A DNA stretch of 64,000 nt from Cellulomonas sp. 73-145 (GTDB lineage Bacteria; Actinomycetota; Actinomycetes; Actinomycetales; Cellulomonadaceae). The translations under genes and the position numbers were made by a program. A model generated the notes under the pieces. That model saw only the letters and a list, made by a program, of their open reading frames with translations. It was not told the origin of the DNA and searched no databases. The stretch is from contig MKTI01000006.1 of NCBI GenBank assembly GCA_001898185.1, positions 558,001 through 622,000 of the forward strand, read 5' to 3'. Below, piece after piece: positions 13,740 to 35,984 of this stretch; position 1 is the first letter of the stretch; each line of letters opens with the position of its first letter.

Positions 13740-13826
13740 ATGGAGCGGCAGACGATCCGCCTGCACTCGATCGCGCCGCTTCCCATCGGGCCGGACGTCG
13801 GCCGCCACGGGCGGGGGGCGCCGTGA
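13740..13826 (+). CDS. Possible 28-aa small ORF coupled to the GH95 gene
   Basis: ATG 13740 is preceded by GGAAGG and opens a 28-residue frame (MERQTIRLHSIAPLPIGP onward) whose TGA overlaps the GTG start of the GH95 gene in a GTGA arrangement. That layout is the same as the coupling seen within the downstream operons. No family is recognised. It may be a leader peptide that couples translation, or chance. Confidence 0.3.
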   Translation: MERQTIRLHSIAPLPIGPDVGRHGRGAP

Positions 13827-16230: not shown

Positions 16231-16252
16231 GGGGCGCCCGGCGCCGGATCGC

Positions 16253-20400: not shown

Positions 20401-20499
20401 GAGCGACGTCCTTCCCGACGGCACTGCCGTCGTGGTGCGGGTCGTCCCTGGTCGCGACGACCGGGGACGTTCGGGGTTTGGGGCGAGCACCCGACGGCG

Positions 20500-22332
20500 T
20501 CAGGGAGCCGTGGTGGGGATGACCGGGAAGTACACGGAGTACCTCTCGTCGACGACCTCGTTGAGGGGCCGCAGGCGGATGGTGCTCGGCTGCGCGACGG
20601 TGCGGTAGCGGGTGAGCCACTGCGACCACTGCCGCTCGTCGTCCGCGGCCAGCAGCGAGGTCGGCGTCCGCGCATCGCCGCGCAGCGCCACCTCACGGTC
20701 GACGAGACCCGCGAGCACCACGGGGCCCTCGACGAACGCCACCGTGGTGGGCTCGTCCGGGATGGGTACCGCCCGCAGCTCGAACGGGAAGGCGACGTCG
20801 GCGCGGGTCCGGCCACCCGTGTGGTCGAACGTCAGGAACCCGTCGACCACCGGGACCGTGCCGTCCGTCTCCACGACGGGCTCACCGGCGGTCCATCCGG
20901 GGACGCGCAGACGGACCCGCAGCGGGACGTCGTCGTCCGAGTCGATCGTGACGCGCACCCGCGAGGCGTGCGGGCGGTGCGTGTCGCCGGCGTCGCCGGC
21001 GTTCGCGTCGGGGCCCACGTCCCTCGACTCGTCGAGCAGCCGGACGTCCACCCGCACCTCCCCGGCGGCGGTCGGCACCTGGGCCTGCGCGGCGACGTGC
21101 TGGGCGATGGTCAGGCTCTCGTCGTCGGCGTAGAACACGAGCGACGAGTGGCGGGTGTGCGCCTGGACGAGGGTGCCGTGACAGCACCAGAAGTCCTCGG
21201 TGGGGCTGCCCCACACCTTGCGCGCGCCGCCCTCGAGCGGCAGGAAGTAGCTGACCATCCCGGTCACGGGGTTCTGCTGGGCGAGGATCCCGTTGACCAG
21301 GTTGCTCTCGATGTAGTCGAGGTAGGCCACCTGGCCCGTCCAGCGGAACAGGACGTCGGCCAGGCGGATCATGTTGTAGACGGTGCAGTGCTCCTGCGTC
21401 TTCGCCCCGCGCCGGGCGGCGAACGCGAACGGCGGCGTCCAGATCTCACCCGAGGTCTGACCTCCGGTGCAGAACGTGCCACGACGCACGACCGCCCACT
21501 CCCAGTAGGCCTCGACGACCCGACGCCATCTGTCCTCACCGGTCACCTCGTAGGCGCGAGCGGCTCCGAGCACCTCGGGGATCGTCGTGTTGGCGTGCTT
21601 GTTGGTGAGCACGTCACGCCCGTCGAGCAGGCCGTCGAACAGCGAGCGGTGGTAGTAGAGGTCGAGGAGCTCGCGGTACGTCGGGTCTCCGGTCGCGGCC
21701 AGCAGGTCGGCCCAGACCTCGAGCATCCCTCCGGTCTCGACCTCGAGCACCGTCTGGAACTCGTCCGCCCCGACGCCGCGCGCCCAGCGCGCCAGGGGCT
21801 GGGCGGCACGGTGCGCGACCCGCAACGCCCGTTCGTCGCCGAGGTCCAGGTACACGTCGAGGAGTCCCATGAGCGTCTTGTGCAGGTCGTACTGCGGTGC
21901 CCAGACGTCGCGCCCCCGCTCGAGGCGACGCAGGAAGGTCGCCGGGATCGCGAAGGCCCACTCCCCGTCGCTCTCGCGCTGGCAGCGCTCCAGGCCGTCG
22001 ACGACCGCGTCGAGCGTGGCGCGCAGGTGGGCGTCTCCCGTGACCGCGATCTCGCGCGCTGCGGCCGACATCCAGTGCCCGACGAAGTGGCCGCGCAGCA
22101 GCGACCCGGGCGTCTCCCAGCCCCAGTGCCTGTCGAGCCCGCGTTCCGCCACGGTGTCGCCCGAGGGCCGCAGGTGCCAGGCCTGCTCGCCGATGCCGGC
22201 CTCGATGAGGTGGTTCTGGAGAAGGGCTGCCGCCCGCAGCGAGGCGAGGTACTCCCGGTTGAGCCTCCGGCGGTCGTCGAACACACCGGGGGAAAGCCGG
22301 ACCTGAGCGTGCCCCAGATGAGTCCGTGTCAT
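20500..22332 (-). CDS. GH127-family beta-L-arabinofuranosidase
   Basis: A 610-residue cytoplasmic glycosidase. The zinc-bound catalytic centre can be read as E314 and C316 in QEHCTVYNM plus C383 and C384 in FWCCHGTLVQ. This matches the Glu/Cys3 zinc site of characterised GH127 enzymes, in which one of the paired Cys is the nucleophile. An (alpha/alpha)6 barrel (GHFVGHWMSAAA, YDLHKTLMGLLDVY) is followed by a C-terminal beta domain (VRLRVPGWTAGEP). It releases L-arabinofuranose from beta-linked arabino-oligosaccharides. First gene of the minus-strand operon; the regulatory palindrome at 22351 lies 19 bases before its start and is shared with the divergent GH36 operon. Confidence 0.93.
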   Translation of the reverse strand: MTRTHLGHAQVRLSPGVFDDRRRLNREYLASLRAAALLQNHLIEAGIGEQAWHLRPSGDTVAERGLDRHWGWETPGSLLRGHFVGHWMSAAAREIAVTGDAHLRATLDAVVDGLERCQRESDGEWAFAIPATFLRRLERGRDVWAPQYDLHKTLMGLLDVYLDLGDERALRVAHRAAQPLARWARGVGADEFQTVLEVETGGMLEVWADLLAATGDPTYRELLDLYYHRSLFDGLLDGRDVLTNKHANTTIPEVLGAARAYEVTGEDRWRRVVEAYWEWAVVRRGTFCTGGQTSGEIWTPPFAFAARRGAKTQEHCTVYNMIRLADVLFRWTGQVAYLDYIESNLVNGILAQQNPVTGMVSYFLPLEGGARKVWGSPTEDFWCCHGTLVQAHTRHSSLVFYADDESLTIAQHVAAQAQVPTAAGEVRVDVRLLDESRDVGPDANAGDAGDTHRPHASRVRVTIDSDDDVPLRVRLRVPGWTAGEPVVETDGTVPVVDGFLTFDHTGGRTRADVAFPFELRAVPIPDEPTTVAFVEGPVVLAGLVDREVALRGDARTPTSLLAADDERQWSQWLTRYRTVAQPSTIRLRPLNEVVDERYSVYFPVIPTTAP

Positions 22333-22350
22333 GCTCTACCCTCTCTTGCA

Positions 22351-22362
22351 GAGATCGATCTC
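22351..22362. promoter_or_regulatory. LacI-type operator A (GAGATCGATCTC)
   Basis: A perfect 12-bp CG-centred palindrome in the 94-base gap between divergent GH127 and GH36 operons. Close variants recur at 32888, 33033, 34043 and 35812. It most likely represses both operons at once; binding by the LacI protein at 12574-13587 is inferred. Confidence 0.75.
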
Positions 22363-22426
22363 ACTATAGTCTACGAACACTCGCCGCGGAGTGGACGCCC
22401 TGCGGCCCGCTCGACGGGACGGAGCC

Positions 22427-24694
22427 ATGACCACCTCACGCGTGATCCACCTCGCCGCCGACGACGTCTCGGTCCTTCTCGTCTTCGAGGGCGAGCTGCT
22501 GCCGACTCTCGCGCACTGGGGACGTCGCCTCGACGCTCCCGACCCGGACCTGCTCGCGTGGGCCGGCTCGACCCACCGCACCGGTATGGAGGGTGAGTCC
22601 GACGTCCCGTACGACCCGAGCCTGCTGCCGGAGCACACCCACGGGTGGGGCGGTCGGCCGGGGCTGTCGCTGCACCGCAGCGGGGCCGCCTGGTCCCCGC
22701 GGCTCAGCGTGCAGACGGTCGACGTGGACGGCGAACCGGTCGCAGCGGGCGGCGTCGTCCGACGCGGGGCGTCGACCGTGCGCGTCGTGGCCCGCGACTG
22801 CGTCGCGCAGGTCGCGGTGGTGCTGGAGATCGGTCTCACGGCCGCCGGGCTGCTGCGGACCCGAGCGGTGGTCCGTAACGAGAGCGAGGGGTCCGACCAC
22901 CTGGACGTCGGTGCGGTGTGCCTGGCACTGGCGGTGCCGACCGACGCCCGTGAGGTCCTGGACTTCGCAGGCCGGTGGGCGACGGAGAAGGTGCCGCAAC
23001 GCCACCCGGTCGCCGTCGGCATGCACACGCGGGAGTCTCGCCGCGGACGCACGGGGCTCGATGCGACGGGGACGATGGCCATCGGAACCCCCGGGTTCGA
23101 CTCCCGGTCGGGGGAGGTGTGGCTGTGCCACGTCGGGTTCGGGGGGAACCACGAGCACGCCGTCGAACGCTCGGACGGTCATCTCGCCTTCCGTGGCGGA
23201 GAGCTGCTCCTGCCCGGCGAGGTCCGGCTCGCGCGCGGTGAGGAGTACTCCTCGCCGTGGGTCTACGGCAGCTACGCCGAGGGGCTCGACGCCGCTTCGC
23301 ACCGGTTCCACCGCTTCCTCCGCGACGCGTCCCGCGCCACCGGGCGACCACGCCCGGTGACCCTGAACATCTGGGAGGCCGTGCTCTTCGACCAGGACCT
23401 CGACACCCTGGCCGAGCTCGCCACGCAGGCGGCCGACCTGGGCGTCGAGCGCTTCGTGGTCGACGACGGCTGGTTCCGCGGTCGGCGTGACGACCACGCG
23501 GGCCTCGGCGACTGGACGCCCGACCCCGACGTCTGGCCCGACGGCCTCGGTCCGCTCGCCGAGCACGTCCGTTCCCTGGGGATGGAGCTGGGGCTGTGGG
23601 TCGAGCCCGAGATGATCAACGAGGACTCCGACCTGGCCCGCGCGCACCCCGACTGGATCCTGCGCGCGCGCCCGCAGCTGCCGCTGCGGCAGCGTCACCA
23701 GCAGGTCCTGGACCTCACCGCCGCGGACGCCTTCGCCCACGTCCTCGACGCCCTCGACCGGCTCGTCACCGACCTGGACCTCGCGTACCTGAAGTGGGAC
23801 CACAACCGCGACCTGGTCGACGCCGGACATCCCGGCTCGGGCGCCGCCGCGGTGCACGAGCAGACGCTCGCGGCCTATCGGTTGATCGACGAGCTCCGCG
23901 TGCGGCACCCCAGGCTGGAGATCGAGAGCTGTGCGTCCGGTGGTGGACGCGTCGACCTCGGCATCCTCGAGCGGACCGACCGGGTCCATCCGTCCGACAA
24001 CCACGACCCGCTCGACAGGTCACGCATCCTGCGCTGGACCGGCCTGCTCGTCCCGCCGGAGATGCTGGGCTCGCACGTCGCCTCGGCCACGTCGTCGGTC
24101 ACCGGTCGCACCCACGACCTGCACACCCGGTGCGCGATCGCGTTCCTCGGGCACTTCGGCATCGAGTGGGACGTGCGTGGGCTCGGTGACGCCGACCGTG
24201 CCCTGCTCGCGCGCTGGGTGGCCGCCTACAAGGACAACCGCCAGCTCGTCGCGACCGGTCGGGTGGTGACCTCGGGGGACGCCGACGCGGATGCGCCCTC
24301 GCTGCGCGGAGTCGTCGCGGCCGACGGCAGCGAGGCCCTGTACACGATCGTCACCCCCCACCTGTCGGCCGACTCCCGTCGTCGCGTGCGGCTGCCGGGG
24401 CTGGAGCCCGACCGTCGCTACCGCATCGAGGCCGCCCAGCCGGAATCCCTCGGTCCCCCGTGGCTGGTCCCGCAGTGGCTGCGCACCGTGCCGGCCCTCG
24501 GCGAGGGTCCATCCGACTCATCCGACTCACCCGACTCACCCGACTCATCGGGCCCGCTCGTGCTCGCCGGCGACCTGCTCACGCGCACAGGGCTCGACCT
24601 GCCGACCTTCCACCCGGAGCGCGTGGTGCTCCTCCGCGTGGTAGCGGTGACCACGACCCCTCAGAGCGTGAACCCCCCAAGGAGCAGACCGTGA
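22427..24694 (+). CDS. GH36-family alpha-galactosidase
   Basis: A 755-residue cytoplasmic enzyme. The N-terminal beta-sandwich is followed by a TIM barrel. The nucleophile D458 lies in YLKWDHNRDL, the acid/base D524 in HPSDNHDPLDR, and the usual FVVDDGWF, GLWVEPEMIN and ESCASGGGR motifs are present. It hydrolyses terminal alpha-galactosides (raffinose-type or galactose side chains). ATG 22427 has GGAG close upstream. Near the C-terminus four 9-bp repeats encode an SDSSDSPDSPDSS loop. Its TGA overlaps the GTG of GH51 (GTGA), the first of several coupled junctions in a four-gene plus-strand operon. Confidence 0.93.
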   Translation: MTTSRVIHLAADDVSVLLVFEGELLPTLAHWGRRLDAPDPDLLAWAGSTHRTGMEGESDVPYDPSLLPEHTHGWGGRPGLSLHRSGAAWSPRLSVQTVDVDGEPVAAGGVVRRGASTVRVVARDCVAQVAVVLEIGLTAAGLLRTRAVVRNESEGSDHLDVGAVCLALAVPTDAREVLDFAGRWATEKVPQRHPVAVGMHTRESRRGRTGLDATGTMAIGTPGFDSRSGEVWLCHVGFGGNHEHAVERSDGHLAFRGGELLLPGEVRLARGEEYSSPWVYGSYAEGLDAASHRFHRFLRDASRATGRPRPVTLNIWEAVLFDQDLDTLAELATQAADLGVERFVVDDGWFRGRRDDHAGLGDWTPDPDVWPDGLGPLAEHVRSLGMELGLWVEPEMINEDSDLARAHPDWILRARPQLPLRQRHQQVLDLTAADAFAHVLDALDRLVTDLDLAYLKWDHNRDLVDAGHPGSGAAAVHEQTLAAYRLIDELRVRHPRLEIESCASGGGRVDLGILERTDRVHPSDNHDPLDRSRILRWTGLLVPPEMLGSHVASATSSVTGRTHDLHTRCAIAFLGHFGIEWDVRGLGDADRALLARWVAAYKDNRQLVATGRVVTSGDADADAPSLRGVVAADGSEALYTIVTPHLSADSRRRVRLPGLEPDRRYRIEAAQPESLGPPWLVPQWLRTVPALGEGPSDSSDSPDSPDSSGPLVLAGDLLTRTGLDLPTFHPERVVLLRVVAVTTTPQSVNPPRSRP
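24512..24547 (+). repeat. 9-bp tandem repeat (CCGACTCA core) x4 inside GH36 gene
   Basis: Four units, two TCCGACTCA and two CCCGACTCA, in frame, encode the Ser-Asp-Ser/Pro loop. They are in-frame multiples of three, so copy-number change would not break the gene. Confidence 0.7.
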
Positions 24695-26211
24695 CCGCTG
24701 TCGTCACCATCGACGCCGACCGCCCCGGACCCACGATCAGCCGGCACCTCTACGGCCACTTCGCCGAGCACCTGGGTCGCGGGATCTACGACGGCATGTG
24801 GGTGGGGGAGGACTCGCCCGTGCCCGACGTCCGGGGGATCAGGCTCGACGTCGTCGAGGCGCTGCGCGAGCTGAACATCCCGAACCTGCGCTGGCCCGGC
24901 GGGTGCTTCGCCGACCGGTACCACTGGAGGGACGGCATCGGACCCCGGCAGGACCGCCCAGCGCTGATCAACACGCTGTGGGGTGGCACCCTCGAGGACA
25001 ACGCGTTCGGCACGCACGAGTTCATGGACCTGTGCGAGCTGCTGGGTGCCGACGCCTACGTCTGCGGGAACATCGGCTCCGGCACTGTCCAGGAGATGTC
25101 CGACTGGGTCGAGTACCTCACCGGAGCGGGGCGGTCGCCGATGGCGGACCTGCGCCGCTCCCACGGACGCGACGAGCCGTGGACCGTCCGCTTCTGGGGC
25201 CTGGGGAACGAGACCTGGGGGTGCGGCGGCAACATGCGCGCGGAGGCCTACGCCGACCTGGCTCGCCAGTTCGGCACCTTCTGCCGCAGCGGCAACGAGA
25301 CCCCGCTGTACCGGGTCGCCGCCGGCGCGGACGGTGCCGACACCGCGTGGACGGAGACCCTCATGAGGGTCGTCCCCGAGATCGGCGCCCACCCCTTCGC
25401 CGCGGTGCCGTGGGAAGGGGTGTCGGTCCACTACTACACGATCGGCGGCACCTGGACGGACAAGGGCAGCGCGACCGCGTTCGGTCCCGAGGAGTACTGG
25501 CGCACCATCGTCGCGGCGCAGGGCGTCGACGACCTGCTCCGGGCGCATGCCGCCGTGATGGACGTCTACGACCCGGACAAGAAGTACGGCATGGTGCTCG
25601 ACGAGTGGGGCACGTGGTGGGACGTCGAGCCCGGCACCAACCCCGGCTTCCTGTACCAGCAGAACACCCTGCGCGACGCGATGGTCGCGGCCCTGCACTT
25701 CGACGTCTTCCACCGCTTCGCCGACCGGCTGACGATGGCCAACATCGCCCAGACGGTCAACGTCCTCCAGGCGATGCTGCTCACCGATCCGGACGGCGGC
25801 CCGATGGTGCGCACGCCCACGTTCCACGTGTTCGAGATGAACAAGGGTCACCACGACGCGACCTCCTTGCCGACCCACGTGGCGGGCCCGTCACGCGCCG
25901 TGGCCGGGCGGGACGTCCCGACGGTCTCCGCGTCCGCGAGCACCCGGGACGGCTCGATGCTCGTCTCGGTGACGAACGTCGATCTCGACGCACCCGTCGA
26001 GATCGAGCTGCAGGTGCGCGGGGGCGTCGTGTCGGACGCGACCGGTCGCGTGCTGTCCGCGGGCTCCGCGGCCGCGTACAACCGGCCCGGCGCCGCGGAT
26101 GTCGTGAGTCCGGTCGGGCTCGATCACCTGGAGCGGACACCGGCCGGCCTGCGCCTCACGCTGCCACCGCACTCGTTCGCGACCGTCTCGGCGACGATCC
26201 AGCACGCGTGA
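24691..26211 (+). CDS. GH51-family alpha-L-arabinofuranosidase
   Basis: A 506-residue intracellular enzyme. The N-terminus (ISRHLYGHFAEHLGRGIYDGMW) is diagnostic of GH51. The acid/base E174 lies in GLGNETWGCGG and the nucleophile E305 in VLDEWGTWWD. A C-terminal beta-sandwich ends the protein. It removes terminal alpha-L-arabinofuranose from arabinan, arabinoxylan or arabinogalactan oligosaccharides, complementing the beta-specific GH127. GTG 24691 with AAGGAG upstream overlaps the GH36 stop. Second gene of the plus-strand operon. Confidence 0.95.
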   Translation: MTAVVTIDADRPGPTISRHLYGHFAEHLGRGIYDGMWVGEDSPVPDVRGIRLDVVEALRELNIPNLRWPGGCFADRYHWRDGIGPRQDRPALINTLWGGTLEDNAFGTHEFMDLCELLGADAYVCGNIGSGTVQEMSDWVEYLTGAGRSPMADLRRSHGRDEPWTVRFWGLGNETWGCGGNMRAEAYADLARQFGTFCRSGNETPLYRVAAGADGADTAWTETLMRVVPEIGAHPFAAVPWEGVSVHYYTIGGTWTDKGSATAFGPEEYWRTIVAAQGVDDLLRAHAAVMDVYDPDKKYGMVLDEWGTWWDVEPGTNPGFLYQQNTLRDAMVAALHFDVFHRFADRLTMANIAQTVNVLQAMLLTDPDGGPMVRTPTFHVFEMNKGHHDATSLPTHVAGPSRAVAGRDVPTVSASASTRDGSMLVSVTNVDLDAPVEIELQVRGGVVSDATGRVLSAGSAAAYNRPGAADVVSPVGLDHLERTPAGLRLTLPPHSFATVSATIQHA

Positions 26212-26240
26212 CCACGAGGACCGACGAAGGACCGGACGAG

Positions 26241-28304
26241 ATGACCGCAGATGCGATGACCACCGGCACCACGCCCGACGCAGCCACCCCGTTCCGCGTC
26301 GTCGACGGGCGCCTGTCCTGGACGGGTGGCGGTGAGACGGTCGCGATCGAGCCCTGGGGGCCGGACTCCGTGCGCGTCCGGTGCAGCATGGGCCGGATCG
26401 AGGACACCGACTGGGCGCTGCTGCCCGCCACGAGCGACCCTGACGCCCTGCGCATCGCCGTCGACGGCGACGTCGCGACCCTCCGCAACGGCCGTCTCAC
26501 CGTCGTCGCCCGTGCCTCGTCCGACAGGGACTGGCAGGCCGGCGGGCTGCGGCACGACTGCCGCCTGGCGTTCTACGACGCCGACGGGCGACTGCTGCTG
26601 CAGGAGGTGCCGGACGACGGCGCCACGAAGCCGCGACCCCGTCGGTACCGTGCGCTGCCGGGAGGCACCTACCGCACGACGCTGTCGCTGGCGGCGGCCG
26701 ACGAGCACCTCGCCGGCCTGGGCGTGTACCAGCAGCGGACGCCCGATCTGAAGGGGTCGACGTTCGAGCTCGCCCAGCGCAACTGCCAGGCGAGCGTCCC
26801 GTTCGTCAGCTCGACGGCCGGGTACGGCTTCCTCTGGCACGACCCGTCGGTGGGACGCGCCACCTTCGGGGCGAACCGCACCGAGTGGGAGTCCAACGGC
26901 AGCAGGCAGATCGACTACTGGGTCACGGCCGGCGGGACACCGGCCGACGTCGCGCGCCACTACGCCGACGCGACCGGCCACGTCCCGATGATGCCCGAGC
27001 TGGGCCTGGGCTACTGGCAGTGCAAGATGCGCTACTCGAGCCAGGAGGAGCTGCTCGAGGTCGCCCGGGAGCACCGGCGGCGCGGTCTGCCGCTGGACGT
27101 CGTCGTCGCGGACTTCTTCCACTGGCCGCACATGGGTGACTACCGGTTCGAGGACGAGTTCTGGCCCGACCCGCAGGCCATGGTCGACGAGCTCCGCGAG
27201 ATGGGCGTCGAGCTCATGGTGTCGGTGTGGCCGCAGGTCGCGCTCGACTCGGAGAACTTCGCCGAGATGGACCGCCGCAACCTGCTCGTGGCGACCAACC
27301 GCGGCATCGACGTCCAGATGTGGTTCGGCGGCCCCAGCAGGTTCGTCGACGCGACGAACCCGGAGGCTCGCGCCTTCCTGTGGGACCGCTGCCGGGAGAA
27401 CTACGCCCGGTACGGGATCCGGCTGTTCTGGCTCGACGAGGCCGAGCCCGAGTTCGGCAAGCAGGAGTGGGACGCGTGGCGCTTCCATGCGGGGCAGGGC
27501 GACGAGGTCGCGAACCTCTACCCGCAGCACCTCTCGCGCACGTTCTTCGAGGGGCTGCAGGCCGACGGCGTGCAGGACGTCGTCAACCTCGTTCGGTGCG
27601 CATGGGCCGGATCGCAGCGCTACGGCGCCCTGGTGTGGTCCGGCGACATCCCGTCGACCTTCGAGAGCCTGCGCCGGCAGCTGACCGCCGGCGTGCACCT
27701 CGGCGTCGCCGGCATCCCCTGGTTCACCACCGACATCGGCGGGTTCTGGGGCGGTCGCGCCGACGACCCGGCGTTCCACGAGCTGGTCGTGCGGTGGTTC
27801 CAGGCGGGCACCTTCATGCCGGTGATGCGCATGCACGGGACACGGCTGCCCGAGGTCCCCGTGGTGGCCGCCGACGGGACCCCTCGGCAGTCGACGGGCG
27901 CACCCAACGAGGTGTGGTCGTTCGGCGAGGCGACCTACCGGATCCTGTCGCGCTACCTGCACCTTCGTGAGGCGCTGCGCGACTACACGCGCGAGCTCAT
28001 GCGGCAGGCCCACACCGACGGGCAACCGGTCATGCGCGGCCTGTTCCACGAGTTCCCCGGCGACGACCGTTGCTGGGGCGACCTCGACGAGTACCTGTAC
28101 GGTCCGGACCTGCTGGTCGCGCCGGTGGTGGTGGCCGGCGCCACGAGCCGATCGGTGTACCTGCCCGCCGGCGCGCGCTGGACCGAGCTGCACTCCGGCG
28201 CCGTCCACGACGGCGGCCAGGACGTGACGGTCGACGCCCCGCTCGACGTCATCCCGGTGTTCGCCCGGGACGGGCACCTCGCGCACCTCGTCGGACGCCT
28301 GTGA
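26241..28304 (+). CDS. GH31-family glycosidase, probable alpha-xylosidase
   Basis: A 687-residue intracellular GH31 enzyme: N-terminal beta domain, TIM barrel with nucleophile D399 in LFWLDEAEPEF and acid/base D469 in VWSGDIPSTF, then C-terminal beta domains (YLYGPDLLVAPVV, VYLPAGARWTELHSG). The D-x-A-E-P-E variant of the nucleophile motif occurs in alpha-xylosidase and related subgroups rather than the WxDMNE of classical alpha-glucosidases, so removal of alpha-xylose from xyloglucan-type oligosaccharides is favoured. Start at ATG 26241, 29 bases after GH51. Its TGA overlaps the next GTG. Confidence 0.88.
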   Translation: MTADAMTTGTTPDAATPFRVVDGRLSWTGGGETVAIEPWGPDSVRVRCSMGRIEDTDWALLPATSDPDALRIAVDGDVATLRNGRLTVVARASSDRDWQAGGLRHDCRLAFYDADGRLLLQEVPDDGATKPRPRRYRALPGGTYRTTLSLAAADEHLAGLGVYQQRTPDLKGSTFELAQRNCQASVPFVSSTAGYGFLWHDPSVGRATFGANRTEWESNGSRQIDYWVTAGGTPADVARHYADATGHVPMMPELGLGYWQCKMRYSSQEELLEVAREHRRRGLPLDVVVADFFHWPHMGDYRFEDEFWPDPQAMVDELREMGVELMVSVWPQVALDSENFAEMDRRNLLVATNRGIDVQMWFGGPSRFVDATNPEARAFLWDRCRENYARYGIRLFWLDEAEPEFGKQEWDAWRFHAGQGDEVANLYPQHLSRTFFEGLQADGVQDVVNLVRCAWAGSQRYGALVWSGDIPSTFESLRRQLTAGVHLGVAGIPWFTTDIGGFWGGRADDPAFHELVVRWFQAGTFMPVMRMHGTRLPEVPVVAADGTPRQSTGAPNEVWSFGEATYRILSRYLHLREALRDYTRELMRQAHTDGQPVMRGLFHEFPGDDRCWGDLDEYLYGPDLLVAPVVVAGATSRSVYLPAGARWTELHSGAVHDGGQDVTVDAPLDVIPVFARDGHLAHLVGRL

Positions 28305-29590
28305 CGACCGACGGCCGCCCGGCGCTCGACGCCCGCACCCACGCCGCCCGTCGTCCCCCGATGGGCTGGAACAGCTGGGACTGCTTCGGCTCGTCGGTGA
28401 CCGAGGCGGAGGTCATCGCGAACGCCGAGTTCATGGCCCGCCACCTGCGTCCGCACGGCTGGGACACCGTGGTGGTCGACATCCAGTGGTACGAGCCGGA
28501 CCCCGGGCTCGAGGGCTACCAGCGCGTCTCCGACCCGGTGCTCGACGCCTGGGGGCGCCCGCTGCCGGCGCCCGGACGGTTCCCCTCGGCGGCAGCCGAC
28601 GGCACGTTCCGCGCGCTCGCGGCCAGGGTCCACGACCTGGGCCTGCGGTTCGGCGTGCACCTGATGCGTGGCGTGCCCCGCCGTGCGGTCGACCGGGACC
28701 TGCCGGTGCTCGGCTCGACGTCGACCTGCGGCCAGATCGCCGACCGGACCAGCGTCTGCCCCTGGAACCCCGACAGCTACGGCGTCGACATGTCCCGCGC
28801 GGGTGCGCAGGCGTACTACGACTCGGTCGTCGCGGCGCTGGCCGAGTGGGGCGTGGACCTCATCAAGCTCGACGACGTGCTCTACCCGCCCATCGAGGAG
28901 CGGGAGATCGCCGCGATCTCCGCTGCGATCGACGCGACCGGTCGCCCCATCACGCTGAGCCTGTCTCCCGGCAAGGAGCTGTCTCTCGCGCACCTCGAGA
29001 CGCTGCGGAGCCACGCCCAGATGTGGCGGATCTCGGACGACTTCTGGGACACGTGGCCCCACCTTCGCGAGCAGTTCCAACGCGCGGCACGATGGGCGCC
29101 GCACCAGCGCCCCGGGGCGTGGGCGGACGCGGACATGCTGCCGTTGGGTCGGATCGGCGTCCGGGCGCACGTCGGAGCGGACCGGTTGAGCCGTTTCACG
29201 CTCGACGAGCAACGCACGCTGGTGACGTTGTGGTGCCTGATGCGCTCACCGCTCATGGTCGGCGGTCACCTCCCGGACACCCCGCCCGAGACGCTCGCGC
29301 TGCTGACCAACGACACCGTGCTGTCGCTGCTGGACAGCGACGCCAGCCGCGAGATCGTGCGGGACGACGACGTCGTGATGTGGAGCGCGGAGGCCGGTGA
29401 CGTCGCGTGGCGCGCGGTGTTCTGGCTCGGGGACGCCGCGACGACCCGGACCGTGCACCTCGCCGATCTCGGGTGCCTGGGCCGCGACCACGTGACCGAC
29501 GGGTGGACGGGCCGCACCGTGGAGCTCCGCAGTGGAGCGGTGACGCTCGACGTGCCGGCGCACGGCGTGCGGCTGCTGCGCTTCGAGTGA
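28301..29590 (+). CDS. GH27-family alpha-galactosidase-like enzyme
   Basis: A 429-residue clan GH-D TIM barrel. RRPPMGWNSWDCFGSSV is the GH27 opening signature, the nucleophile region reads LIKLDDVLY (D191, replacing the usual K-Y-D) and the acid/base region RISDDFWD (D246/D247). The altered nucleophile context and the CGQIADRTSVCPW insert suggest a specificity different from simple alpha-galactosidases, perhaps beta-L-arabinopyranosidase-like; this is inference. GTG 28301 overlaps the GH31 stop. Last gene of the GH36-GH51-GH31-GH27 operon, followed by a strong terminator. Confidence 0.88.
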   Translation: MTTDGRPALDARTHAARRPPMGWNSWDCFGSSVTEAEVIANAEFMARHLRPHGWDTVVVDIQWYEPDPGLEGYQRVSDPVLDAWGRPLPAPGRFPSAAADGTFRALAARVHDLGLRFGVHLMRGVPRRAVDRDLPVLGSTSTCGQIADRTSVCPWNPDSYGVDMSRAGAQAYYDSVVAALAEWGVDLIKLDDVLYPPIEEREIAAISAAIDATGRPITLSLSPGKELSLAHLETLRSHAQMWRISDDFWDTWPHLREQFQRAARWAPHQRPGAWADADMLPLGRIGVRAHVGADRLSRFTLDEQRTLVTLWCLMRSPLMVGGHLPDTPPETLALLTNDTVLSLLDSDASREIVRDDDVVMWSAEAGDVAWRAVFWLGDAATTRTVHLADLGCLGRDHVTDGWTGRTVELRSGAVTLDVPAHGVRLLRFE

Positions 29591-29631
29591 CCACCGCCCC
29601 CGGGATGGTCGCTCGACCCCGGGGGCGGTGG
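29591..29631. terminator. Bidirectional terminator after GH27
   Basis: A perfect 13-bp stem (29591-29603 with 29619-29631) and 15-base loop begin directly after the GH27 stop and end eight bases before the end of the convergent permease gene. Confidence 0.85.
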
Positions 29632-29638
29632 GCCGTCG

Positions 29639-30523
29639 TCAGCCCTTGAACGCCCCGTCCATGATCCCGGAGACCATTCGGCGCCCCGCGAAGGCGAACG
29701 TGACCAGCAGCGGCAGGGTCGCGAGGAACGACCCGCCCAGCGCCAGCGCGACGTCCACCGTCCGGTTGGCCTGCAGCTGCTTCAGCGCGATCTGCACCGT
29801 GAACAGCTCCGGCGACTTCAGCACGATGAACGGCCACATGAAGTCGTTCCACACCGCGGTGAAGGTGATGAGCCCGAGGACGAAGGCAGCCGGCCGAACC
29901 ACGGGGAAGGCGATGCGCCAGAACAGCTGCCAGCTGCCGCACCCGTCGAGCCGCGCAGCCTGCATCAGCTCGTCGCTGACGGTGCTGGACATGTGCTGCC
30001 GCATCCAGAAGATGCCGAACGCGCTCGCGAGGCCCGGCACGATGATGGCCTGCAGGCTGTCGACCCAGCCCAGCTTGGAGACGATCAGGTACTGCGGGAT
30101 GACGCTCAGCTGCGCGGGGACGGTCATCGTCAGCAGCACCAGGACGAACAACGCGTTGCGCCCCCGGAACTCCAGCTTCGCGAAGGCGAACCCCGCCACG
30201 GCGCACAGGACCACCGAGATCACGGCGACCGACAGGGACACGAAAGCGCTGTTCAGCAGTGCGCGCACGAAGGGCACGGTGTTGAACACCCTCGTCGCGA
30301 CGCCGACGAGGTCCGTTCCCGGGTACAGCCGTGGCGGGACCGAGGTCACGGCCGATGCGCCGGCGGTCGCCACCACGAACATGTAGTAGAGCGGGAAGGC
30401 GCTGATCACCACCGCGATGATCAGCAGGAGGTAGACGTACCACGGGACCGCGCCCGGGCGCCTGCGCCGCCGACGCGCCGGTGACCTCAGGCTCGCCTCC
30501 GTCGGAACGGTCATCTCGGCCAT
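29639..30523 (-). CDS. Carbohydrate ABC transporter permease (MalG-type)
   Basis: A 294-residue inner-membrane permease with about six transmembrane helices (first: VYLLLIIAVVISAFPLYYMF). The EAA loop DELMQAARLDGCGSWQLFWRI, which contacts the ATPase, is followed by FPVVRPAAFVLGL and the terminal GRRMVSGIMDGAFKG typical of the second CUT1 permease. Its ATG overlaps the upstream permease stop in TGATG. Last gene of a SBP-permease-permease operon. No ATPase is encoded in the window, so a shared MsmK-like ATPase elsewhere is expected. Confidence 0.94.
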   Translation of the reverse strand: MAEMTVPTEASLRSPARRRRRRPGAVPWYVYLLLIIAVVISAFPLYYMFVVATAGASAVTSVPPRLYPGTDLVGVATRVFNTVPFVRALLNSAFVSLSVAVISVVLCAVAGFAFAKLEFRGRNALFVLVLLTMTVPAQLSVIPQYLIVSKLGWVDSLQAIIVPGLASAFGIFWMRQHMSSTVSDELMQAARLDGCGSWQLFWRIAFPVVRPAAFVLGLITFTAVWNDFMWPFIVLKSPELFTVQIALKQLQANRTVDVALALGGSFLATLPLLVTFAFAGRRMVSGIMDGAFKG

Positions 30524-31485
30524 CAGCGTGCCCCTCGCGTGCGGGTGGTGAGGAAGAAGTTGACGAGCGCAGCCACCACGACGATGACGAACAGCGCGAC
30601 ACCGATCGCGGAGCCGTACCCGAAGTCGAACTGGCCGAAGCCCTGCTCGTACAGGAAGAGCGCGAGGGTCTGGCACTGGCGCCCCGCCCCGCAGGTCAGG
30701 CCGGACTCCGGTGAGACGAGAAGGGGTTCGGTGAAGATCTGCAGCCCACCGATGGTGGACATGACGACCGTGAAGATGATCACCGGGCGCAGCGACGGGA
30801 TGGTCAGGCGAGTGAACTTCTGCCACCCGTTCGCACCGTCCACCGAGGCCGCCTCGTACATCTCGCGCGGTATCGCCTGCATGCCCGCGAGGTACAGCAG
30901 GGTGTTGTAGCCGAACCATCGCCAGGTCACCATCGCCGCGATCTCGGTCCACGACCCGATCCGCGACGCGAGGAAGTTCACGGGGTGCACGTGCAGCAGC
31001 CCGAGGACCCAGTTGATCAGCCCGAAGTTGCGGTCGAAGATCTGCCCGAAGACGAGGGCGGTGGCCGCCACCGAGGTGATGTACGGCAGAAGCATCGCCA
31101 TGCGGAAGAACGTCGCCGCCCGCAGTCGTGCGTGGTTGAGCAGCTGCGCGAGCCCGAGCGCCAGGAGCAGCTGCGGGACGGTGGAGATCACGAAGATGCC
31201 GAGCGTGTTGCCCAGGGCGTTCCAGAACCGGGAGTCGTGCAGCAGGCGCGTGAAGTTCGCCAGCCCGATGAACGTGTGCTCGCCGATGGGGTTCCAGTGG
31301 TAGAGCGCCACCACGAACGTGAAGGCCAGGGGGAACAGGCCGAAGATCCCGAAGATGATGAAGAACGGCGCGACGTAGGCGTACGGCGCCACGCGCTCTG
31401 CGAGCGAGCTGCGGACCCGGACAGGCCGGTCGTCGGGCTTCTGACGGTCCCTGTACGTCGGGACCTGGGTGGTTGTCGCTGACAC
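30523..31485 (-). CDS. Carbohydrate ABC transporter permease (MalF-type)
   Basis: A 320-residue permease with six predicted membrane helices, starting with YAYVAPFFIIFGIFGLFPLA. The EAA loop reads REMYEAASVDGANGWQKFTRL, followed by TIPSLRPVIIF. It pairs with the MalG-type protein to form the import channel for oligosaccharides. GTG 31485 has AGGTAGG just upstream. It lies 59 bases after the binding-protein gene, with a stable hairpin in that gap. Confidence 0.94.
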   Translation of the reverse strand: MSATTTQVPTYRDRQKPDDRPVRVRSSLAERVAPYAYVAPFFIIFGIFGLFPLAFTFVVALYHWNPIGEHTFIGLANFTRLLHDSRFWNALGNTLGIFVISTVPQLLLALGLAQLLNHARLRAATFFRMAMLLPYITSVAATALVFGQIFDRNFGLINWVLGLLHVHPVNFLASRIGSWTEIAAMVTWRWFGYNTLLYLAGMQAIPREMYEAASVDGANGWQKFTRLTIPSLRPVIIFTVVMSTIGGLQIFTEPLLVSPESGLTCGAGRQCQTLALFLYEQGFGQFDFGYGSAIGVALFVIVVVAALVNFFLTTRTRGAR

Positions 31486-31501
31486 GTCCTACCTCCGTCC
31501 G

Positions 31502-31534
31502 CGGCGGCTCGGCGCCAGGAGCGCCGAGCCGCCG
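31502..31534 (-). terminator. Intercistronic hairpin between binding protein and permease genes
   Basis: A perfect 14-bp stem (31502-31515 with 31521-31534) and 5-base loop. Such hairpins stabilise or attenuate mRNA so that the binding protein is made in excess over the permeases; that role is inferred. Confidence 0.75.
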
Positions 31535-31544
31535 AGTGGTCATC

Positions 31545-32828
31545 TCAGCCGACGGCGTCCTTGACGTTCTTCAAGCCCTTGGTCCACGCGTCCTCCGGCT
31601 TGACGTTGCCGGCCTGCATGTCCGCAAGTGCGTTGAGGAGCCCGGAGCCGATGGCGCTGGTGTCCGGACCGTTGTAGAACGAGTTGAACTTCTGCACCGA
31701 CTCGCTCATGACCTGGCCGATCTGCGAGTCACCGAAGAACTTGTCGGTGTACCCCAGGACGGCGCTGCTCGTGAGCGAGTCCTTGGCGGCCGGGAGGGTC
31801 CCGGTCTTCGTGAAGTGCTCGGTCTGGTTCTGGGCCGACTCCATCGTCTTGATGTACTGCCACGCCGCGTCGCGGTGAGCCGCACGGGCAGGGATGGCGA
31901 TGACGCTGCCGCCCCAGTTGCCGCCGACACCGGGAACCGTCGCGATCCGCCAGTTCCCCGCCGTCGCGGGTGCCGCGCTCTTGAGGCCCGACAGCAGCCA
32001 GGACGGGGCGATGGTCACCGCGAAGGAGCCGTTCGCCTTGCCGGGGTCCCAGCCGGACGACCACGCAGCGATGTTCGCGCTGATGCCGGCCTGGTACGTC
32101 TTGACCGCGATGTCGAAGGCGTTCTTGACCTGCGGGTTCGTGTCGTAGACGCGCTTGCCGTCCGGCGAGTAGTACTTCTCCGTCACCTGGTTCACGGTCG
32201 AGAAGAAGACGCTGGTCTCGACGTTGTCGACGAAGGGCTTGCCTGTCGCCGCGGTGTACTTCTTGCCCATCTCGATGAAGCCGTCCCAGGTGGACCACAT
32301 CTTCTCGACCTCGGCGGGGTCGGTCGGCAGCCCGGCCGCCTGGAACAGGTCGGCTCGGTAGGCCAGCCCCAGCCCGCCGACGTCGGTCGGCACGCCGATG
32401 ACCGAGCCGTTGGTGGCCGTCGCTGCACCGACAGCCCACGGAAGGTAGGCGCTCGCCAGGTCCTTGCCGCCGAGCGTGCGCAGGTCGACGAAGTTGCTCG
32501 GGTTCGCGACGAACTTGGGCAGGTCGTCGCCCTGGATCATCACCAGGTCGGGCACGACGCCGCCGGCCAGCGCGGCCGTCAGAGCGGTCGCGGTCTCCGT
32601 CGTGCTGCCCACCTCGGACAGCTTGACGTGGGCGCTCGGGTTCTTGGCGAGGTACTCGCTGACCGAGTTCTTCGCCCCGATGCCGGTGAACGACCAGAAG
32701 GTGAACTCGGCGTTGGGATCGCCGGCGGTGGCGGAGCTGCTCCCACTGGCCGAGCTGCACGCCGAGAGCACTCCTAGGGCCAGTGCGACCACGGCTGCGA
32801 CTGACGGGACGATCATGCGATGCTTCAC
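31545..32828 (-). CDS. Extracellular sugar-binding lipoprotein of ABC transporter
   Basis: A 427-residue solute-binding protein. The N-terminus is a lipoprotein signal (VPSVAAVVALALGVLSACSS) with lipobox LSAC and mature Cys about residue 24. The body follows the CUT1 binding-protein pattern (FTFWSFTGIGAKNSVSEYL, PDLVMIQGDDLPKF, GVPTDVGGLGLAYRADLF). It captures oligosaccharides outside the cell and delivers them to the two permeases. GTG 32828 has AGAGGAAC upstream. An operator-like palindrome lies 60 bases upstream of its start, in the promoter. Confidence 0.95.
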   Translation of the reverse strand: MKHRMIVPSVAAVVALALGVLSACSSASGSSSATAGDPNAEFTFWSFTGIGAKNSVSEYLAKNPSAHVKLSEVGSTTETATALTAALAGGVVPDLVMIQGDDLPKFVANPSNFVDLRTLGGKDLASAYLPWAVGAATATNGSVIGVPTDVGGLGLAYRADLFQAAGLPTDPAEVEKMWSTWDGFIEMGKKYTAATGKPFVDNVETSVFFSTVNQVTEKYYSPDGKRVYDTNPQVKNAFDIAVKTYQAGISANIAAWSSGWDPGKANGSFAVTIAPSWLLSGLKSAAPATAGNWRIATVPGVGGNWGGSVIAIPARAAHRDAAWQYIKTMESAQNQTEHFTKTGTLPAAKDSLTSSAVLGYTDKFFGDSQIGQVMSESVQKFNSFYNGPDTSAIGSGLLNALADMQAGNVKPEDAWTKGLKNVKDAVG

Positions 32829-32887
32829 GGCAGTTCCTCTTCTCTGGGGGGCCGCGTGAGAGTCCGACGCGGCATTGCCTCGGTCTC

Positions 32888-32901
32888 AGAGATCGTTCTC
32901 T
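32888..32901. promoter_or_regulatory. LacI-type operator B (AGAGATCGTTCTCT)
   Basis: A near-perfect CG-centred palindrome upstream of the transporter operon, on the exact complement of the sequence at 35812-35825. It shares the 289-base divergent region with operator C, about 144 bp away centre to centre, which would allow looping. Confidence 0.75.
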
Positions 32902-33032
32902 TTCGAGGCCCGACGTTAGCCGGACCTTGTCCAGTGGGCAAGCGTCTGGCAGCGAGCAGTTACTCTGCAGACGGCGAAGCGCGCGCTGCGTGGATCCAGC
33001 GCCGGCGACCGAGTACGAGCTCGCGTCGATCG

Positions 33033-33044
33033 GAGATCGATCTA
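33033..33044. promoter_or_regulatory. LacI-type operator C (GAGATCGATCTA)
   Basis: Eleven of twelve positions match operator A. It lies about 75 bases before the nucleoside-hydrolase-like gene, consistent with a promoter position. Confidence 0.65.
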
Positions 33045-33117
33045 TGGCGGGACCCAGCCTGACCTCGGCGTACGCCGCGACGTCGTCAACCCCACCCACC
33101 TGGAGGAGGCCGGCGTC

Positions 33118-33984
33118 GTGCTCCCACCCCGTCGCCTGATCGTGTGCACCGATGCCAAGAACGAGGCGGACGACCAGTTCGCCGTCGTCCACGCACTTCT
33201 CACCGAGACTCTCGATGTGCGCGGCATCGTCCCGTCGCACTTCGGGCGCCCGGGCAGCATGGCGGCGTCGCGTGCGGAGGTGCGGCTCCTGCTCGAGCTG
33301 CTGCACCGGGACGTCGTCGTCGCCGACGGTGCGCCGCACGCGCTGCCGGACATCAGCACGCCTGCGCCGTCCCCTGGCTCTCGGCTCATCGTCGCCGAGG
33401 CTCGCGCGGACCTCGGTCGGCTCTACATCGCCGTTCTCGGGCCGCTCACCGACGTCGCCTCGGCCCTGCTGGAGGAGCCCTCGTTGCGCGAGCGTGACGT
33501 CGTCGTGGTGTGGGTCGGCGGTCCACCGTACGAGGGGGTCGCGGCCTACGCCCCGGAGTTCAACCTCAGCAACGACGTCGCGGCTGCCAACGTGGTGCTG
33601 CAGTCGGGCCTCGAGGTGTGGCAGATCCCGATGCCGGTGTACACGATGGTCGGCGTCGGGCATGCCGAGCTCGAGGCGCGGCTGCGCGGGACCGGGCCCG
33701 TCGGCGACTACCTCGTCGACCAGCTCGTCGCGTTCAACGCGACGGTGGAGTACGGCCCGATGGACTTCCGCTCGCTCGGCGACAGCCCCGCCATCGGCGC
33801 CGTGATGAACCCTGCAGGCGGGCGCTGGACCGACCGACCGGCCCCCACGTTCACCGCCGAGGGCACGCTCGCGCCGGGTGCGCGCGGGCGGACGGTCCGC
33901 GTGTGCGAGGCGTTCGACACGCGCTGGCTCATCGAGGACATGTTCGCCAAGGTGCGGTCAGCCGGACGTCACCACGCGGGCTGA
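33118..33984 (+). CDS. Nucleoside-hydrolase-like protein within the sugar regulon
   Basis: A 288-residue protein with the IUNH fold: an N-terminal metal-site motif (LIVCTDAKNEADDQFAVVHAL), a GPLTDVASALLEEP stretch, WVGGPPYEG, and a later EFNLSNDVAAANVVLQSG as in inosine-uridine hydrolases. The first Asp of the usual DTDxGxDD motif is Cys here and the Gly position is changed, so classical purine or pyrimidine nucleoside cleavage is uncertain. GTG 33118 has GGAGGAGG upstream. The upstream operator ties it to oligosaccharide use; it may act on a ribosyl- or arabinosyl-containing compound. This is inference. Confidence 0.8.
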   Translation: MLPPRRLIVCTDAKNEADDQFAVVHALLTETLDVRGIVPSHFGRPGSMAASRAEVRLLLELLHRDVVVADGAPHALPDISTPAPSPGSRLIVAEARADLGRLYIAVLGPLTDVASALLEEPSLRERDVVVVWVGGPPYEGVAAYAPEFNLSNDVAAANVVLQSGLEVWQIPMPVYTMVGVGHAELEARLRGTGPVGDYLVDQLVAFNATVEYGPMDFRSLGDSPAIGAVMNPAGGRWTDRPAPTFTAEGTLAPGARGRTVRVCEAFDTRWLIEDMFAKVRSAGRHHAG

Positions 33985-34042
33985 CCGCAGCCGAGGCGCC
34001 CCGCCCCGGAGCCCGCTGACACGGCCGCCGGCGGTCACGCGA

Positions 34043-34054
34043 GAGATCGTTCTC
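34043..34054. promoter_or_regulatory. LacI-type operator D between convergent genes (GAGATCGTTCTC)
   Basis: Identical to the core of operator B, but placed between the ends of two convergent genes rather than in a promoter. The flanking GCGA/TCGC extends the symmetry. It could be an auxiliary site for DNA looping toward C or E. Confidence 0.55.
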
Positions 34055-34096
34055 GCGCCCGATTGGCCGGTCCGGCGGCCGTCGAGGGCTCGGTCG

Positions 34097-35731
34097 CTAC
34101 GCCTGCACGATCGACATCACGGCCCACGGCTCGAGCTCGACGTCGATCTCCAGCACGCCGTCGCGGGAGGCCGTCAGCACGGATCGCCGCAGGCCGTCGG
34201 CAACCGCCCGCAGGTGCGCCGTCTGGGTCGGCGTGAGGTTCGTCGGTGAGCCCATCCGGTACCACTCCTCGGCGACGTTGCCGTGGCCGAGGTCGAGGGT
34301 CTCGACGACGAAGACCGCCCCGGGTGCCACGCCGTCCACGAGGTGGCGAACGCGGCGCGCCGGTCCCTTGGCGCTCAGCTCGCGCGTGTCCGGGTAGCTG
34401 TCACGCGACCCCAGGGAGAGCCCGTGCATGTCGTCCGGGTAGTTGAAGAAGACGGCGGAGACGCCGGCGGTCTCGCTGTCCCGGGTGAGCACGCCGTGGT
34501 CGGTGGCGAGCAGGAGGCGGTCGCCCAGCCTCGACAGCGCCGAGAAGGCGTGGAAGGTCGGCTTGTGGATGCCCTGCTCGTTGACCATGCCGAAGCCTCC
34601 GTGGAACGGACCGATCCCGGCACCGCCCTCCTCGAACACGTCGGTGAACGTCCAGTACGAGATCGAGCTGGCCAGCGCGGCACACTGCAGGTACGCGCGG
34701 GTGACGTAGGTCGCGGCGTAGACGGTGTCGTGGACGCTGTCGCGACTCGACGGTGTCGTCGACCACTCGGTGATGTGGATCTGCGCCGCGGGGTAGGGGC
34801 TCGCGTCGATCAGGGCGCGCAACCGCGTGAGGTCGTCGAAGGTCGCGTCGGCGTAGCGGCTGATCGAGCGCGTCCCGCCGTCGGCCCCGTACGCGAAGTC
34901 CGTCGGGTAGAGATGGGTCGTGATGAAGTCGATCGGCAGGTCACGCGACGCGCACCAGTCGATGAAGTCGGCGATCCAGACCGGCCGCCAGTCGAGTGCG
35001 TCGACGTCCTCGGCCTCGGAGGTGGCGACCTGCACCGCGCGGTCCTCCGTCTCGCCGGCGTACCGCTCGTCCGGCACGAAGACGCTGGTCGACGGGCCGC
35101 CCACCATGAGGCTCGGGTCGATCGCCTTGATCGCCCGTGCCGTGTGCGCGTACAGCTCGAAGTACTGGGTCTTCGTCCCGGTCCAGAAGTGCGGCACGAG
35201 GTTCGGCTCGTTCCAGACCTCGAACCGCCACGTGCGCACCTCGTCGATGCCGTACCGCTCGAGCCAGTGCCGGATCGTCTCGGTGACGAGCTCGACCCAG
35301 CGCGTCATGTCCGTCGGGGGGCTCGCGTGGGCGCCCCACCAGAACACGGTCTCGGTGTCCGTCGCGAGCGCACGAGGCATGAAGCCGAGCTCCACGAACG
35401 GTCGCGCCCCGGTGGCCAGGATCGCGTCGAACACCTTGTCGACGTAGCTGAACGTGTAGACCGGCTGCGCCAGGTCGCCGGCCGGCCCGAAGCCGCTCCC
35501 ACCCGTGGCCCGGTACACGAACATGTCGTCGTGGAAGAGCCCGTGGAAGCGCACGGCCCGCACGCCGAGCTCGTCGACGGCCTCCCGGAAGTGCTCCTGC
35601 CAGTCGGCGCGCAGCGCCTCGTTCGCGCGTCCCGCCCCCACGCACTCGTTCCAGATGTGCGACAGGGCGACCTCGGTGGGCACCTCGCCGTCGATCCTGA
35701 GCGGCGCGTGCGCGCCTTCGCCGGTGCTCAC
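34097..35731 (-). CDS. GH39-family beta-xylosidase-like glycosidase
   Basis: A 544-residue cytoplasmic clan GH-A enzyme. The acid/base E175 lies in RFEVWNEPNLVPHFW and the nucleophile E322 in IHITEWSTTPSSR, both as in GH39. IWNECVGAGRANEAL near the start and a C-terminal beta-sandwich complete the fold. It probably trims terminal beta-xylose, or an alpha-L-arabinose analogue, from the imported oligosaccharides after side chains are removed. GTG 35731 is supported by AGGAGG; the longer open frame upstream includes the operator and is not coding. Operator E lies about 80 bases upstream. Confidence 0.9.
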   Translation of the reverse strand: MSTGEGAHAPLRIDGEVPTEVALSHIWNECVGAGRANEALRADWQEHFREAVDELGVRAVRFHGLFHDDMFVYRATGGSGFGPAGDLAQPVYTFSYVDKVFDAILATGARPFVELGFMPRALATDTETVFWWGAHASPPTDMTRWVELVTETIRHWLERYGIDEVRTWRFEVWNEPNLVPHFWTGTKTQYFELYAHTARAIKAIDPSLMVGGPSTSVFVPDERYAGETEDRAVQVATSEAEDVDALDWRPVWIADFIDWCASRDLPIDFITTHLYPTDFAYGADGGTRSISRYADATFDDLTRLRALIDASPYPAAQIHITEWSTTPSSRDSVHDTVYAATYVTRAYLQCAALASSISYWTFTDVFEEGGAGIGPFHGGFGMVNEQGIHKPTFHAFSALSRLGDRLLLATDHGVLTRDSETAGVSAVFFNYPDDMHGLSLGSRDSYPDTRELSAKGPARRVRHLVDGVAPGAVFVVETLDLGHGNVAEEWYRMGSPTNLTPTQTAHLRAVADGLRRSVLTASRDGVLEIDVELEPWAVMSIVQA

Positions 35732-35811
35732 CGGGTCGCCTCCTGGCTGGTGTGAACCTCTGGCGCAGCCCAGTCGTCCGGGCGTCGGCGCCCGCGTGAA
35801 CAGAGGAAGCC

Positions 35812-35825
35812 AGAGAACGATCTCT
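35812..35825. promoter_or_regulatory. LacI-type operator E (AGAGAACGATCTCT)
   Basis: The exact reverse complement of operator B, upstream of the GH39 gene. The identical 14-mer at two promoters 3 kb apart supports one regulator for transporter and xylosidase genes. Confidence 0.75.
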
Positions 35826-35949: not shown

Positions 35950-35975
35950 TTGTGCACAATTCGGTTGTGTGCAAC
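35950..35975 (+). promoter_or_regulatory. Candidate OhrR operator
   Basis: A perfect palindrome TTGTGCACAA (35950-35959) is followed by a related TTGTGTGCAA (35965-35974), just before the ohrR start. The position and tandem arrangement fit an autoregulatory MarR/OhrR site; no experimental motif was compared. Confidence 0.5.
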
Positions 35976-35984
35976 TGTTTGCGC

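Follow-up and report, generated by a model that had tools for sequence, protein, structure and literature searches.

A CG-centred palindrome and a LacI-family protein mark a predicted arabinoside regulon in Cellulomonas sp. 73-145

What controls the group of glycoside hydrolase and transporter genes found in a 64,000-nucleotide stretch of the genome of Cellulomonas sp. 73-145 (hereafter the window; positions 558,001 to 622,000 of contig MKTI01000006.1)? An earlier note on this DNA had described five variants of one palindrome and had proposed, by inference, that the LacI-family protein encoded at 12574-13587 acts through them. Our analysis supports that proposal. We put at roughly 0.88 the probability that this protein, probably as a dimer, controls three operons and two single genes through the palindrome. 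The genes under discussion are as follows, with the operons predicted.

12241-12330, tRNA-Ser, 243 bases before lacI
12574..13587, plus strand, LacI-family regulator, 337 aa, recognition helix VSRATAAR (PF00356/PF13377 above cut-offs)
13643-16855, plus strand, GH95 ORF, 1070 aa, Pfam matches ending near residue 793
16253..18568, minus strand, possible right-handed beta-helix protein, end of GH127 operon (PF13229 below cut-off)
18629..19720, minus strand, Gfo/Idh/MocA oxidoreductase, conserved regulon core (PF01408/PF22725)
19693..20490 (start may be 20400), minus strand, ThuA family, conserved regulon core (PF06283)
20500..22332, minus strand, GH127 beta-L-arabinofuranosidase-like, first gene of its operon (PF07944, E 5e-81)
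22427..24694, plus strand, GH36 (melibiase-type), first of a four-gene operon (PF02065 on ORF 22391-24694)
24691..26211, plus strand, GH51-like alpha-L-arabinofuranosidase (PF06964)
26241..28304, plus strand, GH31 (PF01055 on longer ORF 24798-28304; NCBIfam matches below cut-off)
28361..29590, plus strand, GH27, closest solved relative Abp beta-L-arabinopyranosidase
29639..30523, minus strand, ABC permease (PF00528)
30523..31485, minus strand, ABC permease (PF00528)
31545..32828, minus strand, ABC sugar-binding protein, first gene of transporter operon (PF13416/PF01547)
33118..33984, plus strand, nucleoside-hydrolase-like protein (PF01156)
34097..35731, minus strand, GH39 (PF01229 on longer ORF), nearest solved relatives beta-xylosidases
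35952-36434, plus strand, MarR-family gene, divergent to GH39, sharing the intergenic region with site 35813
36476-36898, plus strand, OsmC-like gene

The window thuA-gfo genes lie 3' of GH127, behind the site at 22351. The last 603 bases of the GH95 ORF overlap the beta-helix ORF on the opposite strand.

All five palindromes were recovered at the positions that the note gives, and they are indeed variants of one CG-centred word. Exact copies of GAGAWCGWTCTC begin at 22351, 32889, 34043 and 35813, and the site at 33033 departs from it by a single mismatch, a final A in place of C. A sixth site, at 22826, lies inside the GH36 gene; the earlier note does not mention it, nor the convergence of the genes around 34043 or the divergent MarR-family gene facing 35813. 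The sites and the one promoter proposed from sequence are listed here; sites carry no strand.

22351..22362, operator GAGATCGATCTC, between divergent GH127 (18 bases to start) and GH36 (64 bases)
22826..22837, GAGATCGGTCTC, probable operator within GH36 (codons 134-137), 475 bp from the main site
32889..32900, operator GAGATCGTTCTC, upstream of the transporter gene (60 bases), following a -10-like element by 12 bases
32913..32941, minus strand, proposed transporter promoter, TTGCCC - 17 bp - TAACGT
33033..33044, operator variant GAGATCGATCTA, upstream of the nucleoside-hydrolase-like gene (73 bases)
34043..34054, exact site GAGATCGTTCTC, between convergent 3' ends, 58 and 42 bases away
35813..35824, operator GAGAACGATCTC, 81 bases before GH39, also upstream of the divergent MarR-family gene

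Could such words arise by chance in a GC-rich genome? In-frame E-I-D-L codons do yield 12-mers of this kind, and 69 genomes of the genus that lack the LacI ortholog carry 36 exact sites, about 0.5 per genome; we examined 23 of these and found 16 in frame within coding sequence and 7 between genes. Against this background, GAGAWCGWTCTC has four exact copies in the 14 contigs (3,873,425 bases) of the genome, always between genes and always inside one 13.5-kb stretch, so that the genome scan suggested by the earlier note confines exact matches to this locus. One-mismatch sites number 31 in the genome, two in the locus (22826 and 33033) and 29 elsewhere; 11 of those 29 were examined, and 10 are in-frame coding (E-I/N-D/E/V-L codons) and one is intergenic. 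A reversed-pattern control gave no exact match in the whole genome and three matches with up to one mismatch, compared with 35 for the true pattern. With up to two mismatches the window has 14 matches versus 6.0 (sd 2.3) in shuffled sequence, and none of 100 shuffles reached 14. Chance palindromes are already contradicted because the sites are conserved, being kept at matching promoters across families (see below), and we regard this explanation as having a negligible probability. The form of the site, an even palindrome with a central CG, is that of the LacI family: in PMC4052901, even palindromes are given for 1251 of 1303 transcription factors, 1173 of those with a central CG. Some genus genomes without this LacI (loci L089, L091 and L097) have at position 1501 an intergenic symmetric variant, GAGAACGTTCTC, which is possibly the operator of another regulator.

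The protein encoded at 12574-13587 combines a LacI HTH (PF00356) with a periplasmic-binding-like effector domain (PF13377). If it recognizes the palindrome, then operator and regulator should be found together in relatives, and they are. Within the genus, a LacI of 59% identity or more is encoded by 12 of 81 genomes, counting that of the window; the other 11 are at about 60%. In all 11, an exact GAGATCGATCTC lies 38-81 bp from lacI, and in 10 a second site, exact or with one mismatch, lies on the other side of the gene. These 11 genomes contain 20 exact sites altogether, 17 at lacI and three elsewhere, inside called genes. All 11 have a thuA-gfo pair (57.8-69.8% identical to that of the window) on one side of lacI, and nine have a GH127-related gene (29-31% identical to window GH127) on the other. 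A search of the order (396 genomes drawn, matches at E 1e-85) returned eight genomes, two of them of the genus, and thus six orthologs outside it; in five of these cases lacI has an exact site at a distance of 62-1151 bp. The sixth, in G378, sits on a 7-kb fragment with no site; in that genome the GH127 and transporter promoters have one-mismatch sites at the same distances as in the window (19 and 61). In G374 and G118, from two other families, lacI is divergent from transporter genes (70-80% identical) with operators between them, and G374 also has GH127, GH36, GH51 and GH27. ThuA (57-73% identical) and Gfo/Idh/MocA homologs are present in the relatives' loci. An additional search in named genomes gave 54 LacI loci at only 24-39% identity, and these were set aside.

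Across the fetched surroundings of lacI, an exact site is present in 16 of 18 clade members, drawn from four families. The 18 proteins form one group in the tree (100/99) and 20 paralogs (41-44% identity) form another; at the 20 paralog loci, which encode the helix SRSTAS, there is no site even with one mismatch. The helix SRATA(S/A)R occurs only in the LacI clade among the proteins compared. Arginine at helix position 20, paired with G at operator position -6 (64/66 half-sites), agrees with the LacI rule relating these two positions in PMC2978694. The genome of the window itself encodes 34 LacI HTH proteins, and among the 30 of 34 loci examined only the window's has the SRATA helix. In that genome, two LacI paralogs with the helix SRSTAS (G000:C5:447118-448110 and 451982-452980; ~42% identical) are separated by about 4 kb, and such sites are absent from both loci.

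The position of the window lacI does raise a different possibility, that the sites are real and are bound by another of the 34 LacI proteins or by some other regulator, the gene at 12574 having become uncoupled when it moved beside GH95. No operator is found upstream of or near the window lacI, so there is no sign of autoregulation; the gene is ~8.8 kb from the nearest site and adjoins GH95, which itself has none. According to PMC4052901, over three quarters of local LacI regulators control their own genes, and 13 of the 18 clade members have a site (exact or with one mismatch) upstream of lacI. It is absent from that position in the window, G378, G013, G274 and G088, although the last three have a site elsewhere in the locus. 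The window, G378 and G013 proteins group in the tree with moderate support (95/74). Set against uncoupling are the sole SRATA helix among the own-genome loci examined, a helix type that comes with the operator in 16 of the 18 proteins of the clade, and the sister G378, which keeps its promoter sites at unchanged distances together with an 85% identical LacI. We therefore judge control by a different protein to be quite improbable, and the LacI-family protein at 12574-13587 remains our candidate regulator.

A weight matrix was built from 33 sites at 18 loci of relatives, including the G374 intragenic site. Because these sites were gathered with the window's own pattern (up to two mismatches), which makes the matrix partly circular, and because two intragenic or weak cases are included, the matrix is not fully independent of the window. 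Its half-site consensus is A7 G6 A5 G4 A3 T2 C1 (66 half-sites), with C1 and A3 in all, G6 and A5 in 64, and G4 and T2 in 62. Applied to the window, the relatives' matrix ranks the six sites first, with scores from 26.6 to 15.9 and the next at 8.1; five score at least 18.1, and 22826 scores 15.9. In 60 third-order Markov sequences (64 kb each, modelled on the window), scores of at least 16 occurred at 0.05 per sequence, with a maximum of 19.4. A candidate partner at 33011, at 22 bp spacing, has two mismatches and falls outside the matrix top 20.

The sites are placed as operators of linked carbohydrate genes would be. Four of the six (22351, 32889, 33033 and 35813) are at glycoside hydrolase, transporter and nucleoside-hydrolase-like promoters, just as the earlier note had said of four of its five. 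Its fifth, 34043, is between the 3' ends of convergent genes. The proposed transporter promoter reads by eye as TTGCCG-17-TAGCCT in G378 and TTGCCC-17-TACTGT in G118, giving the pattern TTGCCN-17-TANNNT, and 35813 lies 11 bases after an extended -10-like element, TGATACGTT, on the GH39 side. A generic promoter scan of 22300-22450 and 32820-33130 reported no sigma-70-type promoter; in the latter region it gave one terminator-like hairpin, which overlaps site 32889.

Comparison of orthologous promoters was informative for GH127 and the transporter, where sites are kept in relatives. The counterpart of 22351 at the GH127/GH36 position has one mismatch in G378 and is exact in G374. At the transporter, the counterpart of 32889 has one mismatch in G378, is exact in G118, and in G374 is exact but only nearby; the second site of the pair, corresponding to 33033, has one mismatch in each of G378, G118 and G374. 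Differences between site and homology start are 19, 19 and 18 for GH127 in the window, G378 and G374, and for the transporter pair 61/205 in the window, 61/207 in G378, 57/194 in G118 and 155/233 in G374, where they are measured from residue 37. GH127 homologs of G118, G253 and G459 have no promoter site of their own (G253 and G459 checked within one mismatch), and that of G118 appears to lie inside the transporter operon. We also considered 13 transporter homologs (47-51%) as further regulon members and rejected them, as none has a match within one mismatch in its fetched stretch; the L207 stretch has no upstream sequence.

GH39 differs. None of 14 GH39 homologs has a match within one mismatch in the 1,000 bp upstream; elsewhere, three of them match with one mismatch inside the coding 3' end, and one does so at 1,242 bp upstream. 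Because all 14 lack a promoter operator, GH39 looks recruited into the regulon, a link without comparative support. Sites 34043 and inverted 35813 share 15 bases, CGAGAGATCGTTCTC, and flank GH39, one at its 3' end.

How might the repressor act? E. coli LacI loops DNA as a tetramer, and its tetramerisation helix lies beyond residue 327. Residues 9-335 of the window protein align to residues 5-327 of E. coli LacI (360 aa), and the protein ends two residues later, without the C-terminal extension of a tetrameric, loop-forming LacI. Because the 337-aa protein aligns only to residue 327 of 360, a dimer is expected; DNA looping was set aside on the same ground, and a roadblock to elongation would be a better model than loops for 22826 and 34043. 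The DNA itself shows the sites, where they lie, that they are confined to the locus and that they are conserved next to lacI orthologs; that the genes are repressed and a sugar induces them, how the operons are built, where transcription starts and which sugar acts are inferred. In the proposed mechanism, the repressor would bind (A)GAGAWCGWTCTC(T), a CG-centred palindrome, and, when its sugar effector is absent, would hold down genes for import and breakdown of arabinose- or galactose-bearing plant oligosaccharides, namely GH127-thuA-gfo-beta-helix, GH36-GH51-GH31-GH27, the ABC transporter, the nucleoside-hydrolase-like gene and GH39. The single site at 22351 would serve the two divergent GH127 and GH36 promoters. 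At the transporter and GH39, the operator is just 3' of the expected transcription start, and binding there would therefore block initiation or early elongation.

The two sites away from promoters may also belong to this scheme. At the aligned GH36 codons, G374 has GAG ATC GAT CTC, an exact GAGATCGATCTC that extends to an exact match over AGAGATCGATCTCT, 453 bp from its main site, and G378 has GAG CTC GCT CTC, with two mismatches; the main site of G378 is 475 bp away, the same spacing as in the window. Among the 29 other GH36 homologs (the best 30 loci minus the window), none has fewer than two mismatches and five have two. The third residue is Glu in 27 of these 29; the three regulon members have Gly, Asp or Ala instead, each with a T-ending codon: GGT accounts for 183 of 1643 Gly codons (11%), GAT for 51 of 198 Asp (26%) and GCT for 11 of 146 Ala (8%) in the gene sets counted, and the three cases are not independent events. 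The same codons in two relatives and the departure from the protein consensus suggest that 22826 is a real downstream operator; the codon pattern favours, without proving, selection for the operator. According to PMC4052901, fewer than 1% of LacI-family sites are in coding regions.

It may also be that only the promoter sites function, with 34043 a hairpin-type terminator and 22826 a coding coincidence. The position of 34043 between convergent 3' ends would suit a terminator, as would its flanks, which extend the palindrome to an 8-bp stem (folding z -1.9 and -1.5), and the two mismatches in G378, like those in the five homologs, would suit a coincidence. That no T run follows 34043, that it is an exact 12-mer with no exact copy in the genome beyond this locus, that Glu has given way to Gly, Asp or Ala with T-ending codons at 22826, and that G374 is exact over AGAGATCGATCTCT all count against it. 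Comparison is limited at 34043 itself: G378, G374 and G118 are absent from the 15 genomes that gave a GH39 match, leaving no ortholog of this site, and the nucleoside-hydrolase match is lacking in G378 and G374 and is found in G118 at 54%, elsewhere in its genome. We rate function confined to promoters somewhat short of an even chance. Tentatively, and at well under even odds, we suggest a two-layered arrangement, in which a dimeric LacI-family repressor would use promoter operators as well as operators in GH36 codons 134-137 and at 34043 that stop elongating RNA polymerase, the intragenic one being conserved between families to a degree that overrides the residue normally present there.

GH127, GH51, GH27 (nearest a beta-L-arabinopyranosidase) and GH36 point to L-arabinose and galactose linkages, GH36 also giving a weak match to a beta-L-arabinopyranosidase model (106 bits, cut-off 1100), and the nearest solved relatives of GH39 indicate xylose linkages. 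Our best guess is that the effector is an L-arabinose-containing oligosaccharide. A gum-arabic-type specificity for GH39 was considered and is unsupported because its nearest solved relatives are beta-xylosidases.

This GH127 was not found at E 1e-150 in the other genus members drawn, and LacI, GH127 and the transporter are 83-90% identical to those of G378, which belongs to another family; lateral transfer is thus likely. G378 also has the lacI-GH95 pair, at 82-85% identity. An integrative island at the tRNA-Ser was considered and set aside as not shown: the window lacks a duplicate of the tRNA 3' end, base composition is not clearly different, and the sequence upstream of lacI differs in G378, whose 7-kb contig carries no tRNA.

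Overall, the predicted regulon resembles several known systems. BauR1 and BauR2 of Bifidobacterium are described in PMC5928203 as LacI-family regulators of beta-arabino-oligosaccharide genes. Like them, the window protein is a local LacI-family regulator whose predicted targets include a GH127-family enzyme and a sugar transporter. Compared by gene set alone, BauR1 is associated with GH121 and GH127, whereas here GH127 occurs with GH36, GH51, GH31, GH27, GH39, ThuA and Gfo/Idh. The best solved relative of the window LacI is 5ysz, which we take to be CelR. CelR and CebR, the cellulose regulators of actinobacteria, use the operator TGGGAGCGCTCCCA and have other target genes. The likeness extends to the LacI fold, the CG-centred palindrome and G at -4 and -6; the helix of 5ysz is GRGTVSR, and operator and targets differ. 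thuA is a target of ThuR. This LacI regulator of rhizobia (trehalose) has the motif natcnAAAnCGnTTTngatt in PMC4052901, unlike GAGAWCGWTCTC; what the two systems share is a LacI regulator and the ThuA family name. For a LacI-family operator inside a coding region, which is only predicted here, the same paper names E. coli PurR at purB and LacI inside lacZ, and the reference list of PMC4132739 carries a purB roadblock title. With no C-terminal extension, the window protein would be nearer to a PurR-like roadblock than to the looping E. coli LacI tetramer.

In the literature searched, whose coverage was partial, the matches listed include no description of this regulon, motif or LacI ortholog group. 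If, as is very probable, the protein controls these genes, the regulon adds one more case, and an unremarkable one, to a familiar type of gene regulation. A group of orthologous LacI proteins would gain a regulator role, an operator and a gene set, and ThuA and Gfo/Idh/MocA proteins, whose role is unsettled, would be linked to arabinoside breakdown in several families. The site at 22826 is well suited to asking how repression by a dimeric LacI protein could work from within a gene.
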